Numbered from the stretch's first letter, positions 3,099-8,311 are shown. The stretch: 8,311 bases of DNA from Deltaproteobacteria bacterium RIFOXYA12_FULL_61_11 (GCA_001799195.1 MGSU01000163.1:641-8951); one strand, 5' to 3'. Numbers and translations: made by a program. Notes: a model not told the origin generated them from the sequence alone.

Positions 3099-3234
3099 GA
3101 AAAGGCGTGCTCCCGGCATGGGCTTGGCCGGAATGCTGGCGGTTTCTCGTGGGATTGGCAAGAGGGAAAGAGGTTGCAGAGGACCCTTCAGTCTTGGGTG
3201 GTTTGAGGGATTCGAGGGGTCCTGTCACCTCCCA

Positions 3235-3288
3235 CCCCCACCATGCTCATCCTTGCGCGTGGCGGGGGACCCCCGTCGGTGCCACCCC
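3235..3288 (+). repeat. 54-bp repeat, copy 1 (inverted relative to copy 2)
   Basis: All 54 bases match the reverse complement of 8217-8270, checked base by base. Identity stops at both ends: the next bases differ on each side. The copy contains the 13-bp palindrome CGGGGGACCCCCG at 3263-3275. It is intergenic, 66 bp before the -35 box of the epimerase promoter. It could be a dispersed intergenic repeat, a mobile-element end or a recombination site. No transposase is seen beside it. Confidence 0.95.
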
Positions 3289-3312
3289 GTCGTGGTGACA
3301 AAAACAACCAGT

Positions 3313-3330
3313 AATCCACCCAAGACAGAA
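3313..3330 (+). repeat. Diverged second box next to repeat copy 1
   Basis: These 18 bases match the reverse complement of 8174-8191 at 15 of 18 positions. The box lies 24 nt from the core of copy 1, and its partner lies 25 nt from the core of copy 2. This suggests that the repeated element extends beyond the perfect 54 bp in a less conserved form. Confidence 0.5.
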
Positions 3331-3353
3331 GGATTACGTTGCAAAGGAAGCAG

Positions 3354-3382
3354 TTGCCAATCTACGTCCGGGCGGGTATGGT
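3354..3382 (+). promoter_or_regulatory. Putative sigma-70-like promoter of the epimerase gene
   Basis: TTGCCA at 3354-3359, a 17-nt spacer and TATGGT at 3377-3382 match the housekeeping consensus at 5 of 6 and 4 of 6 positions. Transcription from here would give a leader of about 40 nt before the ATG at 3431. Sequence match only; promoter consensus in this lineage is assumed. Confidence 0.5.
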
Positions 3383-3430
3383 CGCTTCCGGTCGCGGCAG
3401 CAGCGACCTCTCCATCCTCACGGAGGCAGC

Positions 3431-4483
3431 ATGAAGGTTCTGGTCACCGGCGCGGCCGGATTCATCGGGTACCACCTGGTCGGTCGCTGTCTGGCCGAGG
3501 GCTACGACGTGGTCGGGCTCGATTGCATCAACCATTACTACGATCCGGCGATCAAGTATGCGCGGCTCGGACGGCACGGTCTCGCGACCGAGCGTCTTGT
3601 TCCCGGCACCCTCGTGCAGAGCGAACTGCACCCGGCCTACCGCTTCGTCAAGCTGCAACTGGAGGAACGGCAAGCCCTGCACGATTTGTTTGCGGTCGAG
3701 AAGTTCGATGCGGTCTGCCACTTGGCGGCCCAGGCCGGGGTGCGCTACTCCCTCAAGAACCCCTATGCCTACCTCGACAGCAACTACCACGGCTTCCTGA
3801 ACATCCTCGAGGGCTGCCGCCACAACGGGGTTGGCCACCTGGTCTATGCCAGCAGCTCCAGCGTGTACGGGCTCAACCAGCACATGCCCTTCTCGACCAG
3901 CGACAGCGTCGATCACCCGGTCAGCCTGTACGCGGCCTCGAAGAAGGCCAACGAGCTCATGGCCCACGCCTACGCCTACCTCTACGGTCTGCCGACCACG
4001 GGGTTGCGCTTCTTCACCGTCTACGGACCCTGGGGAAGGCCGGATATGGCCCTCTTCCTCTTCACCCAGGCCATCCTCGCGGGGCGGCCGATCGACGTTT
4101 TCAACCACGGGGACATGGAGCGGGACTTCACCTACATCGATGACATCGTCGAAGGGTTACACCGAGTCCTTCGCCGACCGCCCTCGCCGTCGAAGGACTG
4201 GGATCCCGAGCGACCCGACCCGGCGGCCTCTCCGGCTCCTTACGCCCTGTACAACATCGGCAACGGCGCCCCGGTGCGCTTGCTGGACTATATCGAGGCC
4301 CTGGAGAGGGAGCTCGGTCGCACCGCCGAACGCAATTTCCTGCCTCTGCAGGCCGGGGATGTGCCGGCTACCTTTGCCGACACCACGGCCTTGCTCCGCG
4401 ATTTCGACTATCGCCCCGCGACGCCAGTGGCCGAGGGCATTCGCCGCTTCGTTGCCTGGTACCGCGAGTTTTACGCCTGCTGA
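3431..4483 (+). CDS. UDP-glucuronate 4-epimerase-type NAD-dependent sugar epimerase
   Basis: This 350-residue short-chain dehydrogenase/reductase-type epimerase is predicted to interconvert UDP-glucuronate and UDP-galacturonate in the cytoplasm, supplying an acidic sugar for polysaccharide synthesis. The NAD-binding GxxGxxG is at residues 7-13 (GAAGFIG). The catalytic Ser lies in SSSSVYG (141-147), and Tyr167 and Lys171 form the YxxxK motif. FFTVYGPWGRPDMA (194-207), RDFTYIDDIVEG (231-242) and LPLQAGDVPATFAD (304-317) are typical of the CapI/LpsL-like UDP-glucuronate epimerases. The GLDCINHYYDPAIKYARL stretch near residues 29-46 also fits this group better than UDP-glucose 4-epimerases. GGAGG ends 4 nt before the ATG, a slightly short spacing. 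The gene ends in a 13-bp convergent overlap with a glycosyltransferase gene, which fits a glycan-building role. Substrate assignment is by motif resemblance. Confidence 0.93.
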   Translation: MKVLVTGAAGFIGYHLVGRCLAEGYDVVGLDCINHYYDPAIKYARLGRHGLATERLVPGTLVQSELHPAYRFVKLQLEERQALHDLFAVEKFDAVCHLAAQAGVRYSLKNPYAYLDSNYHGFLNILEGCRHNGVGHLVYASSSSVYGLNQHMPFSTSDSVDHPVSLYAASKKANELMAHAYAYLYGLPTTGLRFFTVYGPWGRPDMALFLFTQAILAGRPIDVFNHGDMERDFTYIDDIVEGLHRVLRRPPSPSKDWDPERPDPAASPAPYALYNIGNGAPVRLLDYIEALERELGRTAERNFLPLQAGDVPATFADTTALLRDFDYRPATPVAEGIRRFVAWYREFYAC

Positions 4484-5604
4484 GCCGTACGACCGGCGGC
4501 GGCTATTGCGGTGAACAAGGTCAGCCATTCCTCGGCGATGCGTTCCAGCGAGAGCCGTTCGACGATACGTTCCGCCTCTCGGCCCAAGCGTCGGGCCAGG
4601 CCGGGATCGCCGAGGAGCCGTTCCATGGCCAAGCAAAGGGCCGCGGAAGACCCCGGGGGGACGAGGAGACCGTTCTTCTCGGGTTCGATCAGCTCGGCCG
4701 GTCCGCAGGGGCAGTCCGCGCTCACCACGGGCAGACCGCAGGCCATGGCCTCGCACAGGGCGTTGGGAAAACCCTCGTACCGCGATGAGAGCACGAACAG
4801 GTCGGCCTTCCGCAGGATAGCACCGGGGTTCCGTACGGTACCGAGGAAATGAACCCTCCCGACCAGGCCGAGGCGTTCCGCTTGGTGTTCCAAGGCTTCA
4901 CGGAGCGGGCCGGAGCCGAGCAGGTACAGGTGGGGCCGCGGTTCGGCTCGGACCTCGGCAAAGGCCTCGAGCAGCAGGTCGAAGCCTTTTTGCGGCGTCA
5001 AACGGCCCATGGCGACCACGGCCGGGTGTTGGAGGTCGAGGCCGGGCTCGCCGGCGTCGGAAGAGCCGCGATCATCGCGGTGGGGCAAGGGGTTCTCGAT
5101 CACGGTTAGGAGCCGGCTCTGCAGGAAACGCTCGAACCAACCTCGCACGCGCCGGGTCTGCACCACCACGGCGGCGGCGCGCGGGTAGAGCAGGCGTCTT
5201 GCAGCCGCCAGAGGGCGGGGCAGGATTCTCCTCGCAGGATCGTTGCGCTCGGCCACCACCACGGGCAGGGAAGAGCCGAGGGTTACCAGGAGGACGATCA
5301 GGTTGGTGAGGTCCATGAACGAGATCACCACGTCGGGCGAGGTCCTGACCAGGAGGCGACGCAGGTGCCAGAGACCGAGGGGGCGATGGAGCAGCTTTCG
5401 CAGGCCTTGTTTTCCTGGGGGAAATCCCCCGTGCAGGGCGACCCGGCGTACCTGGGGGCAAAGCGGGTAGGCCAGGGTTTCGCCGTGATCCAGGGTGACG
5501 AGGGTCACGCGATGCCCCAGGGCTGCCCAGCGGTTGCACAAGAGCACGGCTACGCGTTCGGCTCCGCCGGTGCCGAGGGTGCTGATGCAGAGGGTCAGGT
5601 TCAC
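4471..5604 (-). CDS. GT4-family glycosyltransferase (PglJ/PglH-like architecture)
   Basis: This 377-residue retaining glycosyltransferase of the GT-B fold probably adds a hexose or N-acetylhexosamine to a lipid-linked glycan at the inner face of the membrane. The glycine-rich acceptor-domain loop LGTGGAERV is at residues 10-18. The donor domain shows MGRLTPQKG at 199-207 with Arg201 and Lys206. The EX7E motif is EGFPNALCE at 277-285, continuing into AMACGLPVVSADCPCGPAELI. This last block is common in transferases that act on undecaprenyl-linked sugars, but the exact donor is unknown. The start is GTG. No ATG lies between it and the preceding in-frame stop, and the family's normal N terminus begins here. 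The ribosome site is weak: TGGAG, 14 nt upstream. The M14 peptidase gene lies 77 bp upstream on the same strand, so read-through transcription is likely. Confidence 0.92.
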   Translation of the reverse strand: MNLTLCISTLGTGGAERVAVLLCNRWAALGHRVTLVTLDHGETLAYPLCPQVRRVALHGGFPPGKQGLRKLLHRPLGLWHLRRLLVRTSPDVVISFMDLTNLIVLLVTLGSSLPVVVAERNDPARRILPRPLAAARRLLYPRAAAVVVQTRRVRGWFERFLQSRLLTVIENPLPHRDDRGSSDAGEPGLDLQHPAVVAMGRLTPQKGFDLLLEAFAEVRAEPRPHLYLLGSGPLREALEHQAERLGLVGRVHFLGTVRNPGAILRKADLFVLSSRYEGFPNALCEAMACGLPVVSADCPCGPAELIEPEKNGLLVPPGSSAALCLAMERLLGDPGLARRLGREAERIVERLSLERIAEEWLTLFTAIAAAGRTAQQA

Positions 5605-5681
5605 GTCGCGAGAAGAGGCTCCAGGTCGGGTTGACGGGGCATCAGCCGGTCAGGAAACAGCGGAAGAGGTGTGGGCGTTTG

Positions 5682-6605
5682 TCACGGACGGGTCGCGGCC
5701 AGTTCTTCGGCGCTGAGGTTGCCGCGGCACTGAGCCGGGTCGTGGACGTGCTTCTGCGAGCGCAGGTCGGGCAGCAGGGCGTAGTAGGCGACCAGGGCCT
5801 TGGCGTCCTTGTCCAGGTTGGCCTGCCGCGACATCTCGAGCAGCATGGTCCAGACTCCGTACTTGTGGTAGGCCCAGTCTTCGAAGGAGCCCACCGCGGG
5901 GTAGATCACATCGGTGTGCGTACCGGTGCGGTAGCTGTTGAAGGCCACTGCCGCCTTCGCGACCTTGTCGTAGAAGGCGTGGTCCGCGGTCTGGGTGTTC
6001 TTGGTGTGGATGCCCCAGGGATAGGTGAAGGTGCCGATATAGCCGTGACCGGTCACCGCGCCGACGATCTCGTGCTCGTGGATGAAACGGGCCAGGGCCG
6101 TGGTCGAGGTTAGGTTGAAGGCGGCGTTGTTGGTGCAGGCGTCGGGATAGTCGCGGTTGGGATCGTAGGTCCGACCGTTCTTGGCGGTCTCGGCCCGGCT
6201 GCCCCGGTTGTACCCGGTGACGTTGAGCACCGGGAAGACATAGAGCACGGCCCGGGCGTAAATGCCATGGAGGGAGTTGGCCGGGTCGCCAAGGATGGAG
6301 AGGACCTTGTCGATGAAGGGGAAGGCCACGTCGGCGGTGAGTTGTTCGTTACCGTGATGGGTGCCGATATAGAGGTAGGCCGGCCGTTCGAGGTCAAGGA
6401 GGTCCGAGGACGCATCGGTGAGCCTCAGACCGAGGAGCTGGGTACCCTGGTCATTCTCGCCAAGGCTGACCATGGACGCCAGAGCCGGCTTCGCCTTGGC
6501 GATGGCCGCGAGCTTCTCGACCATGACGTCATAGGGGGCGGCCAAGGCACTGATCGGCAGGATAGTCGCGCAGAGCAGCAGGAACGCCGAACGTACTGAG
6601 TTCAT
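5682..6605 (-). CDS. Exported M14-family zinc carboxypeptidase
   Basis: This 307-residue single-domain metallopeptidase probably removes C-terminal residues from peptides, or trims peptidoglycan peptides, outside the cytoplasm. Residues 1-22 form a signal peptide ending in ALA. The zinc site is His84 and Glu87 (HGNE motif) plus His187 in TGHGY. DPNRDYP at 148-154 holds the Asn-Arg pair that binds the substrate carboxylate. Tyr235 (VIYPAVGS) and Glu257 (MLLEMS) sit 22 residues apart, as do Tyr248 and the catalytic Glu270 of carboxypeptidase A. All core catalytic residues are therefore present and the enzyme should be active. There is no propeptide or C-terminal anchor. The ATG at 6605 has AGGAGG 6 nt upstream. 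A promoter and an inverted repeat lie just ahead. The second glycosyltransferase gene follows 77 bp downstream. Substrate specificity is not readable. Confidence 0.92.
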   Translation of the reverse strand: MNSVRSAFLLLCATILPISALAAPYDVMVEKLAAIAKAKPALASMVSLGENDQGTQLLGLRLTDASSDLLDLERPAYLYIGTHHGNEQLTADVAFPFIDKVLSILGDPANSLHGIYARAVLYVFPVLNVTGYNRGSRAETAKNGRTYDPNRDYPDACTNNAAFNLTSTTALARFIHEHEIVGAVTGHGYIGTFTYPWGIHTKNTQTADHAFYDKVAKAAVAFNSYRTGTHTDVIYPAVGSFEDWAYHKYGVWTMLLEMSRQANLDKDAKALVAYYALLPDLRSQKHVHDPAQCRGNLSAEELAATRP

Positions 6606-6611
6606 GAATCC

Positions 6612-6617
6612 CCTCCT
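6612..6617 (-). promoter_or_regulatory. Ribosome binding site of the M14 peptidase gene
   Basis: On the minus strand this reads AGGAGG, 6 nt before the ATG at 6605. It is a consensus Shine-Dalgarno site that fixes the start. Confidence 0.8.
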
Positions 6618-6627
6618 CGCCGTGAGA

Positions 6628-6645
6628 GTTCGGATACCTCCGAAC
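6628..6645 (-). promoter_or_regulatory. Inverted repeat in the peptidase leader, possible operator or hairpin
   Basis: Seven-base arms GTTCGGA and TCCGAAC are separated by 4 nt. The repeat begins 10 nt downstream of the predicted -10 box of the peptidase promoter and ends 10 nt before its ribosome site. It could be a repressor-binding dyad at the transcription start or an RNA stem-loop near the 5' end of the message. The arms are perfect; the function is inferred from position. Confidence 0.45.
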
Positions 6646-6655
6646 CCGACAACGG

Positions 6656-6684
6656 TTCATACCAGAATAGTCGCGAGCTGACAA
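6656..6684 (-). promoter_or_regulatory. Putative extended -10 promoter of the M14 peptidase gene
   Basis: On the minus strand, TTGTCA (6684-6679), a 17-nt spacer and TATGAA (6661-6656) match the sigma-70 consensus at 5 of 6 and 4 of 6 positions. TGG just before the -10 box gives an extended -10 element. The leader would be about 45 nt. This is the best promoter match I noticed in the window. Confidence 0.6.
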
Positions 6685-6717
6685 GCCCTGTTCCGGGACA
6701 ATCTTGGCGCCTGAGGA

Positions 6718-6744
6718 GGGGTGGGGGGGGGAAAGGGACCTGGG
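6718..6744 (+). other. G-rich tract fitting the G-quadruplex pattern
   Basis: Four G-runs of 4, 9, 3 and 3 bases are separated by loops of 1, 3 and 4 nt. This satisfies the usual G3+N1-7 quadruplex rule on the plus strand. The tract lies upstream of both divergent promoters. Whether it folds or matters in the cell is unknown. Confidence 0.5.
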
Positions 6745-6817
6745 CGAAACTGGAAAATGGAATTCAAAACAATGAACAAACCTATGTTGCATCTGAGGAT
6801 CCGGGGGTAGGTTGGCT

Positions 6818-6846
6818 TTGACAAGCCCCAGGGGTTCTGCTACCAG
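6818..6846 (+). promoter_or_regulatory. Putative promoter of the aminotransferase gene
   Basis: A perfect TTGACA at 6818-6823 is followed by a 17-nt spacer and TACCAG at 6841-6846. The -10 box is poor (3 of 6) but is preceded by TGC, an extended -10 feature. The leader to the ATG at 6925 would be about 70 nt. A short dyad (CCCCAGGGG) lies inside the spacer. Confidence 0.4.
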
Positions 6847-6912
6847 AGGCGGGGAGCGGCCCGTACAGGGGCGGTTTCCGGGCGGAAGAGCCGGACGTCG
6901 GTGACGAGCAAT

Positions 6913-6917
6913 GAGGT
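6913..6917 (+). promoter_or_regulatory. Ribosome binding site supporting the ATG at 6925
   Basis: GAGGT lies 7 nt before the ATG at 6925. The alternative GTG at 6901 has only a GGAAGAG about 10 nt upstream. Both are possible; the ATG gives the family-typical N terminus. Confidence 0.5.
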
Positions 6918-6924
6918 ACTGGTC

Positions 6925-8127
6925 ATGCCCCCAGTTCGGGTCGAGCCCTCGGCGCGCAGTCGTGAGATCAAGTACGCGGTCCGCGATATCGTACTCCTGG
7001 CCAACCAGGCCAAGGAACGCGGGAAAGAATTGCTCTATCTCAACATCGGAGATCCGCTCGAGTACGATTTCGAGACCCCCCCCCATCTGATCGAGGCCGT
7101 GGAACGGGCCATGCGGAACCAGCGCAATGGCTATTCTCCCTCGTCGGGCACTGCCGAAGCCCTGGAGGCGATCCGCGGTCTGGCCGAGCGGCGGGGGTTC
7201 CGCGAGGTGCAAGAGGTCTTCGTCACCTCGGGAGGCAGCGAGGCCATCGAGTTGGCCCTGGCCGCCCTGGTCGACCCGGGGGACAACGTGTTGGTGCCCT
7301 GCCCCGGCTACCCGCTCTACACCGCGGTCCTGCCCAAACTCAGCGCCGAGGCCCGACCCTATTTCCTCGACGAGGAGCGCGATTGGCAACCCGATCTCGC
7401 CGACCTCGAGGCCAAGATCGACCACCGCACCCGTGGACTGGTCCTGATCAACCCGAACAATCCCACCGGCGCGGTCTATACCCGTGAGGTCTTGTTGGAG
7501 ATCCTCGAACTTGCGCGGCGCTACCGCCTGGTCGTCTTCGCTGACGAGATCTACGACCTCCTGGTCTACGGGAAAGAGCGCAAGCACGTCTCCATCGCCA
7601 CCCTGTGTGACGACGTGGTCGTGGTCACCTTCAATGGCCTGAGCAAGAGCTATCTGGCCCCTGGGTGGCGCATCGGCTGGGGTATCATCAGCGGGGATCG
7701 GGTTGCGGCAGCGGAGTACGCTGAGGCCGTGCTCAAGTTCACCCGCGCCAGGCTGTGCGCCAGCCACCCCATGCAGGCAGCCATACGACCGGCCCTGGAG
7801 GGCGACCAGAGTCACCTCGAGAAGGTCAGGAACAAGCTGTACTGGCGGCGCAACCTGACCGTGCAGATGCTCAACTCCATCGACGGCATCCACTGCGTGT
7901 TGCCGCAAGCCGCCTTCTATGCCTTCCCCACGATAGAACTCGGGATCGACGATGAGGCCTTCGTCCACCGGCTGATCATGACCTCGGGTGTGGTCGTCGT
8001 GCCGGGCAGCGGCTTTGGCCAACGCCCCGGCAGCCACCATTTCCGCGTCGTCTTCCTGCCCGAGGAGCATATCCTGCAGCGGGCCTTCGAACGCCTGGCC
8101 GAGGTTGCGGCGACCTTCCGCGGTTGA
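6925..8127 (+). CDS. Class I/II PLP-dependent aminotransferase, alanine aminotransferase-like
   Basis: This 400-residue cytoplasmic transaminase probably interconverts alanine and 2-oxoglutarate with pyruvate and glutamate. It resembles E. coli AlaA and the archaeal (Pyrococcus-type) alanine aminotransferases. The N-terminal block EIKYAVRDIVLLANQ (residues 14-28) and LNIGDPLEYDF (39-49) are typical of that group. Further landmarks are INPNNPTGAVY (175-185, with cofactor-contacting Asn179), FADEIYDLLVYG (205-216, Asp207 and Tyr210), the Schiff-base Lys241 in SKSYLAPGWR (240-249), and Arg374 in HHFRVVF, which binds the substrate carboxylate. The length matches the family. If translation began at the GTG at 6901, eight residues would be added. 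The gene diverges from the M14 peptidase gene. Other amino-donor preferences, such as aspartate or valine, cannot be excluded from sequence alone. Confidence 0.93.
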   Translation: MPPVRVEPSARSREIKYAVRDIVLLANQAKERGKELLYLNIGDPLEYDFETPPHLIEAVERAMRNQRNGYSPSSGTAEALEAIRGLAERRGFREVQEVFVTSGGSEAIELALAALVDPGDNVLVPCPGYPLYTAVLPKLSAEARPYFLDEERDWQPDLADLEAKIDHRTRGLVLINPNNPTGAVYTREVLLEILELARRYRLVVFADEIYDLLVYGKERKHVSIATLCDDVVVVTFNGLSKSYLAPGWRIGWGIISGDRVAAAEYAEAVLKFTRARLCASHPMQAAIRPALEGDQSHLEKVRNKLYWRRNLTVQMLNSIDGIHCVLPQAAFYAFPTIELGIDDEAFVHRLIMTSGVVVVPGSGFGQRPGSHHFRVVFLPEEHILQRAFERLAEVAATFRG

Positions 8128-8173
8128 GGCGTGTCCAGAAAAACGTAGAAGCGGATGTATGCCTTCAGTAAAG

Positions 8174-8191
8174 TTCAGTTTTGGGTGAATT
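8174..8191 (-). repeat. Diverged second box next to repeat copy 2
   Basis: Its reverse complement matches 3313-3330 at 15 of 18 positions. It lies 25 nt from the core of copy 2, on the side facing the aminotransferase, mirroring the arrangement at copy 1. Confidence 0.5.
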
Positions 8192-8216
8192 GCACGTAAG
8201 TGATCACTCGATCGCA

Positions 8217-8270
8217 GGGGTGGCACCGACGGGGGTCCCCCGCCACGCGCAAGGATGAGCATGGTGGGGG
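8217..8270 (-). repeat. 54-bp repeat, copy 2 (inverted relative to copy 1)
   Basis: This is a perfect reverse-complement match to 3235-3288, starting 89 bp after the aminotransferase stop codon. The internal palindrome CGGGGGTCCCCCG lies at 8230-8242. The two copies bracket 4,928 bp. The absence of a single substitution, while the flanks have diverged, implies recent spread, gene conversion or strong constraint. Confidence 0.95.
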
Positions 8271-8311
8271 CGACCGCATGGATGCGGACCTCCAAGCGAC
8301 GCGCAGGATGC

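Follow-up and report, generated by a model that had tools for sequence, protein, structure and literature searches.

Exact 54-bp inverted repeats flanking a four-gene block are probably the interiors of a dispersed MITE with REPIN-like internal units

The perfect 54-bp inverted repeats that bracket four genes in this stretch of DNA are most probably the conserved interior of a dispersed, non-autonomous MITE of ~150 bp, of which two independent insertions became neighbours by chance. To this reading as a whole, including the interior units and the transposases that we infer, we assign a probability of about 0.88. The window, 8,311 nucleotides in all, corresponds to positions 641-8951 of contig C163 in a 4.64-Mb MAG (342 contigs, 87% complete). 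Within it, 3235-3288 and the reverse complement of 8217-8270 form arms that are complementary at 54 of 54 positions and lie 4928 bp apart; because the chance expectation of such a match in 8.3 kb is ~1e-23, the pair reflects real homology. A first-pass annotation made from the sequence alone had reported this exact identity, which direct comparison reproduced, and had called both copies intergenic; each indeed lies between genes. The four genes it had named in the intervening block were recovered with Pfam: an epimerase (PF01370), a GT4 glycosyltransferase, an M14 peptidase (PF00246) and a class I/II aminotransferase (PF00155). These are ordinary metabolic genes on alternating strands, and they are bystanders, unrelated to the repeat and flanked by its copies by chance.

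Sequence identity between the two window copies ends at 54 bp: outside, only 16 of 49 and 9 of 41 ungapped positions are equal. Beyond the 54 bp almost nothing matches, and we regard the copies as separate insertions. The left copy is complete, spanning 157 bp on the minus strand (3181-3337; ends GTAATCC...GGGTCC by family alignment). It consists of a left terminal inverted repeat (TIR; GTAATCCTTCTGTCTTGGGTGGATT, 3313-3337, with 20 nt at 90% complementarity), a left arm, the first copy of the 54-bp core (3235-3288), a right arm (TGGGAGGTGACAGGACCCC, 3216-3234) whose T pairs with the A of the core's GGCACC, and a right TIR (AAACCACCCAAGACTGAAGGGTCC on the minus strand, 3181-3204). An 8-bp target-site duplication brackets this copy, with GTTGCAGA on its left side (3173-3180) and GTTGCAAA on its right (3338-3345), matching at 7 of 8 positions. 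Because the left copy on its own has this flanking duplication, the mobile unit is each copy and not the block. The right copy, on the plus strand (8157-8311, by family alignment), belongs to a left-arm subfamily (GTATGCCTTCAGTAAAGTTCAGTTTTGGGTG...; CAGTAAAGTTCAGTTTTGGGTG) other than that of the left copy. Its core (8217-8270) is followed by the start of a second 54-bp double-hairpin unit of type B (8271-8311, plus strand), recognized through a pattern match at C163:8916-8951 and complete in other copies. Window base 8311 is the last base of C163 (8951), and the contig breaks here inside the repeat. The limit of identity at 54 bp, the left copy's own 8-bp duplications and the contig end had all been overlooked in the first-pass annotation.

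The same anatomy recurs across the family. In the orientation of the right-hand copy, a member starts with the terminal repeat GTAnnCCTTCAGTCTTGGG(T/G)GGATTG and continues with a variable left arm, the 54-bp core, TGAGAGGYGACAGGACCCC and the inverted terminal repeat, which finishes GACTGAAGGnnTAC at the far end; the TIRs are ~20 bp long and begin GTAnnCCTTCAGTCTTGGG. Copies free of additional units are 143-161 bp long, without coding capacity or a transposase gene. Across 73 copies, the 8 bp immediately outside the two ends match at a mean of 4.73 of 8 positions, compared with 2.12 (SD 0.15) for shuffled partners, and the duplication is perfect in 17 of the 73. Only a length of 8 gives a peak, with 59% identity versus about 24-31% at most other lengths. 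The repeat therefore has the properties of a MITE, namely terminal inverted repeats, a target-site duplication, short length, no transposase gene and many copies.

Searching the whole MAG with the 54-bp core, as the first-pass annotation had proposed, located it with 3 or fewer mismatches at 52 places, split evenly between the strands (26 each); a reversed control pattern gave 0. The right arm, KGAGAGGYGACAGGACCCC, occurs at 86 places with at most 2 mismatches (its reversed control gave 9 matches at a looser, 3-mismatch setting), and the TIR consensus has 22 genome matches. Altogether the family occupies about 90 genome places, bearing out the dispersed repeat that the annotation had listed as one option. 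Since many copies are cut by contig ends, the true copy number should be higher than counted. Neither 58 other genomes nor GTDB contigs (exact pattern), IMG/VR, plasmids or phages contained a match to the core, and the 54-bp unit had none in one same-phylum genome. The repeat is likely restricted to this lineage, the genomes searched including almost no relatives; all family copies analysed come from one genome.

The interior of the MITE is modular. From core start to right arm, the distance is 72 bp in 35 copies, 125-126 bp in 11, 179 bp in one and 180 bp in one, that is, it grows in 54-bp steps. Optional units fill several slots: D before the core (contigs C252 and C329), A in the core hairpin loop, B after the core, and C in the loop of B (C269). 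Direct reading of the longer copies shows such units in tandem or nested in the loop of the second hairpin. Two hairpins make up each optional unit: one resembles a REP and has a head of GTRG type, and the second has a loop of GCAGGATGCA type. Homology extends across the eight unit types, A-H (alignment z 2.5 to 14), each of which folds into the two hairpins, with stems that differ in sequence yet still pair and with conserved loops (AAGGAT and GCAGGATGCA, or variants of these). The core has in common with the units a GTGG start and the loop motif of the second hairpin; its homology to them is weak (z <=3.75) and mostly not significant, and by these shared motifs it is possibly a diverged unit.

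By direct reading, units were found with all left-arm subfamilies. Subfamily 2 includes copies with no unit (L001, L014), with B (L005, L008, L073), with A (L146) and with A and B (L150); subfamily 3 likewise includes copies with none (L012, L015, L016), with B (L020), with B and C (L063) and with A and B (L122). Automatic A/B module calls confuse homologous units and were excluded from the counts in favour of direct reading. Between arm subfamilies, the cores are 94-97% identical, compared with 58-62% for the arms. Cores that are alike across diverged arms, together with units in all subfamilies, indicate that interior and arms do not have one common history. In one copy, on C338 (L148; C338:18646-18681), unit A is fused into the end of unit B and the second half of the core is deleted, from which it follows that recombination between units happens.

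Units of the same kind exist outside the MITE. Contig C194 (L163:1144-1995) carries an intact 283-aa Y1_Tnp gene (Pfam E 1e-9, over the cut-off), the last codons of which are overlapped or supplied by two 54-bp units at its 3′ end; the best NCBIfam model for the protein, REP_Tyr_transpos (NF047646), scores 30.4 bits, below its cut-off of 80. A relic on C56 shares its C-terminus and unit with the C194 gene, and similar gene-end contexts, with a CAGTCTTTTTTC-like sequence ahead of the first unit, were found on C53, C34, C192, C3, C268, C309 and C35. At C194, C56, C53 and elsewhere, a GTRG head leads into a GC-rich palindrome that has a short unpaired stretch at its centre (GTGGCGGCAGGGATGCCG), and the head of unit B is GTGA or GTGG. 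Allowing up to 3 mismatches, the REP hairpin GTGGCGGCAGGGATGCCGACCT is found at 35 places, of which some belong to unit B of the MITE. It recurs in tandem at 54-bp spacing on C268 (three), C287, C34, C53 and C194, with free arrays on C268, C287 and C34. Nested units with a GTG(G/C) start lie at equivalent loop positions in the core (A), in unit B (C269) and in free units on C192, C53, C3 and C289.

Because the units stand both at the 3′ end of a RAYT-like gene and free at 54-bp spacing, they are best described, from sequence and predicted folding, as REPIN/BIME-like. We say REPIN-like and not REPIN because a REP was found only on the 3′ side of the C194 gene and none on its upstream side. A protein search for RAYT relatives in GTDB contigs confirmed none. 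At C34:15333-15460 (L186, around 1500), a unit array of the RAYT-3′-end kind forms a chimera with the right arm of the MITE and its terminal repeat.

With respect to mechanism, the whole MITE would have spread by the action of a cut-and-paste DDE transposase on its ends, plausibly of IS66 type. Elements of the IS66 family produce 8-bp repeats and have ends starting GTAAGCG (PMC11946415). The MITE resembles them in its 8-bp duplication and in ~20-bp ends beginning GTA(A), and differs in lacking the GCG and in that no parent element was found. A degraded IS66 element on C53 (L162:1379-2563), with TnpA, TnpB and a partial TnpC, has an end, GTAAGCGCGTAACC, that agrees with the MITE in its first four bases only, GTAA. 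The only IS66 TnpC over the cut-off, on C91 (L089), is without internal stops, and the DNA examined around it contains no matching ends. The ends were used to look for a parent transposon, both genome-wide and near the IS66 and Y1 genes; every TIR match read was a MITE copy, which in an 87%-complete assembly is weak evidence of absence. Many accepted MITEs are without a resident parent.

The interior units, in turn, would have been acquired from RAYT-associated repeats, with which they may still be exchanged, either by single-strand transposition or by recombination between units. A more specific model, which we put forward tentatively and consider rather doubtful as a whole, is a merger between a MITE of DDE type and a RAYT/REPIN system: the MITE would act as carrier, and an HUH transposase would insert the 54-bp REPIN-like units site- and orientation-specifically, in tandem and into the second-hairpin loop of a unit already present, so that the element would grow into a nested hairpin tree and be spread by two unrelated transposases. 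Having the same 54-bp unit at a RAYT-like gene, free-standing and nested in a MITE at equivalent loop positions supplies junctions at which the RAYT insertion model can be tested. Such junctions bear on how REPINs spread and on how composite repeats such as BOX gain modules.

A different account of the interior dispenses with RAYT altogether, holding that the 54-bp identity reflects ongoing gene conversion, with unequal recombination as the sole route by which units come and go. The A/B fusion on C338 and the finding of module states with all arm subfamilies are what such a process could leave behind. However, the RAYT-like gene and the free arrays also have units of this 54-bp length, and the nested insertions at several loci open with the REP head at equivalent positions in the loop; we consider gene conversion as the sole explanation possible, though unlikely.

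The MITE interior is also strongly structured. The consensus fold of 36 aligned unit-free copies contains the pairings GGGGT-ACCCC, CRCC-GGYG and CCCCCRCCA-TGGTGGGGG. An R in the core is paired with a Y in the right arm in all 75 readable copies (47 G-C, 27 A-T, 1 G-T; 27 G-C and 9 A-T in the aligned set), a covariation that comes from one genome and could also arise from exchange of core and right arm as a block or from template switching at the hairpin. One hairpin pair is G-T in 28 of the 36 copies, A-T in 7 and G-C in 1, and the G-T form would fit an RNA of the strand read here. One could suppose that selection maintains the interior as a structured RNA, regulatory or CsrA-binding, inside a mobile repeat, and that RNA function rather than recent spread or exchange has conserved the 54 bp. 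The covarying R-Y pair, a G-U pair that fits a one-strand transcript, a core far more conserved than the arms and a CsrA gene in the genome (L142; C112:33503-33658) would all agree with this. Unit hairpin loops such as AAGGAT, closed by C-G, resemble CsrA sites. About half of the cores, however, are without GGA (AAGNAT, where N is C, A or T), and the matched changes have the other sources just named, so that we judge a selected RNA to be improbable. A CsrA sponge, considered as a candidate, was demoted to a minor rival upon the loss of GGA in half of the cores. Rfam, with HEARO/omega RNA considered, gave nothing at gathering level in the window and nothing of note at E<=1 at five loci.

Our preferred reading, a dispersed MITE with REPIN-like units, has its closest known kinds in pneumococcal BOX elements for its architecture and in RAYT/REPIN repeats for its modules. 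The boxB module is ~45 bp long and is not known to have a link to RAYT genes. Here, unlike in BOX, the modules are 54-bp double hairpins that also stand at a RAYT-like gene, form free arrays and nest in loops. In Streptococcus pneumoniae, BOX is organized as boxA-(boxB)n-boxC, with MITE-like ends, a target duplication, a folded transcript, repeats that insert into each other, and internal modules that are fixed in length, vary in number and pair little with the ends (PMC3049150), to be compared with the 72-, 126- and 180-bp interiors found here. This likeness is one of architecture alone, by description, and we do not file the repeat as a BOX element.

In the literature, REP sequences lie at RAYT genes and combine a GTRG head with a GC-rich palindrome whose short middle stays unpaired (PMC2817692, PMC3116915, PMC3733652). 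Like REP, REPIN and BIME sequences, our units place the GTRG head directly before the palindrome (GTGG CGGCA GGGA TGCCG at the C194 gene), contain paired hairpins, form tandem arrays and overlap a Y1 transposase gene at its 3′ end. In contrast to them, many copies here lie inside a MITE that makes 8-bp target duplications. Furthermore, the second hairpin carries no GTRG head on its own strand, so the unit departs from the canonical inverted REP doublet. ERIC, bcr1, Correia and NEMIS are likewise small, non-coding and intergenic, with terminal inverted repeats, strong secondary structure and many copies (PMC3733652, PMC2817692), but the present repeat differs from them in its 8-bp duplications, its GTA...TAC ends and its variable 54-bp internal units. 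We found no description of REPIN units as the interior of a MITE in the open-licence literature.

Two readings that give the gene block itself a role fare worst. The first-pass annotation had offered the repeats as paired transposon ends or as an invertible block, and had named many solitary copies as the finding that would speak against both; this is what the genome contains, and the left copy alone is bracketed by its 8-bp duplication. We counted 7 pairs of neighbours lying within 5.1 kb of each other (4 inverted, 3 direct), where random placement would give ~10, and since such pairs are no commoner than chance, the window pair is not special. That the block and both repeats make up one 5-kb composite or compound element that carried the four genes together is very improbable: two inverted copies do flank a block, but each has its own terminal repeats as far as readable, the left one sits directly within its own 8-bp duplication, the two come from different arm subfamilies, spacing and orientation of nearest neighbours match chance, and the genes are metabolic and of alternating strand. 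Programmed or frequent inversion of the block is just as hard to credit: perfect inverted identity over 54 bp might in principle permit rare homologous recombination, but ninety-odd copies share the sequence, which leaves nothing specific to the window pair, and no window protein matches a recombinase in Pfam. We agree in this with the annotation, which had seen no recombinase or transposase gene in the block and had considered an autonomous element unsupported. Perfect 54-bp inverted repeats can be two members of one abundant repeat family, and recognizing this removes a tempting but wrong account of an invertible or transposable gene block.

The family has also left its mark on the assembly. 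Contigs ending inside the repeat are C163, C53, C90, C149, C158, C166, C167, C169 and C170, and further C196, C244, C252, C296, C298 and C336; the repeat family is a main cause of fragmentation in this MAG.
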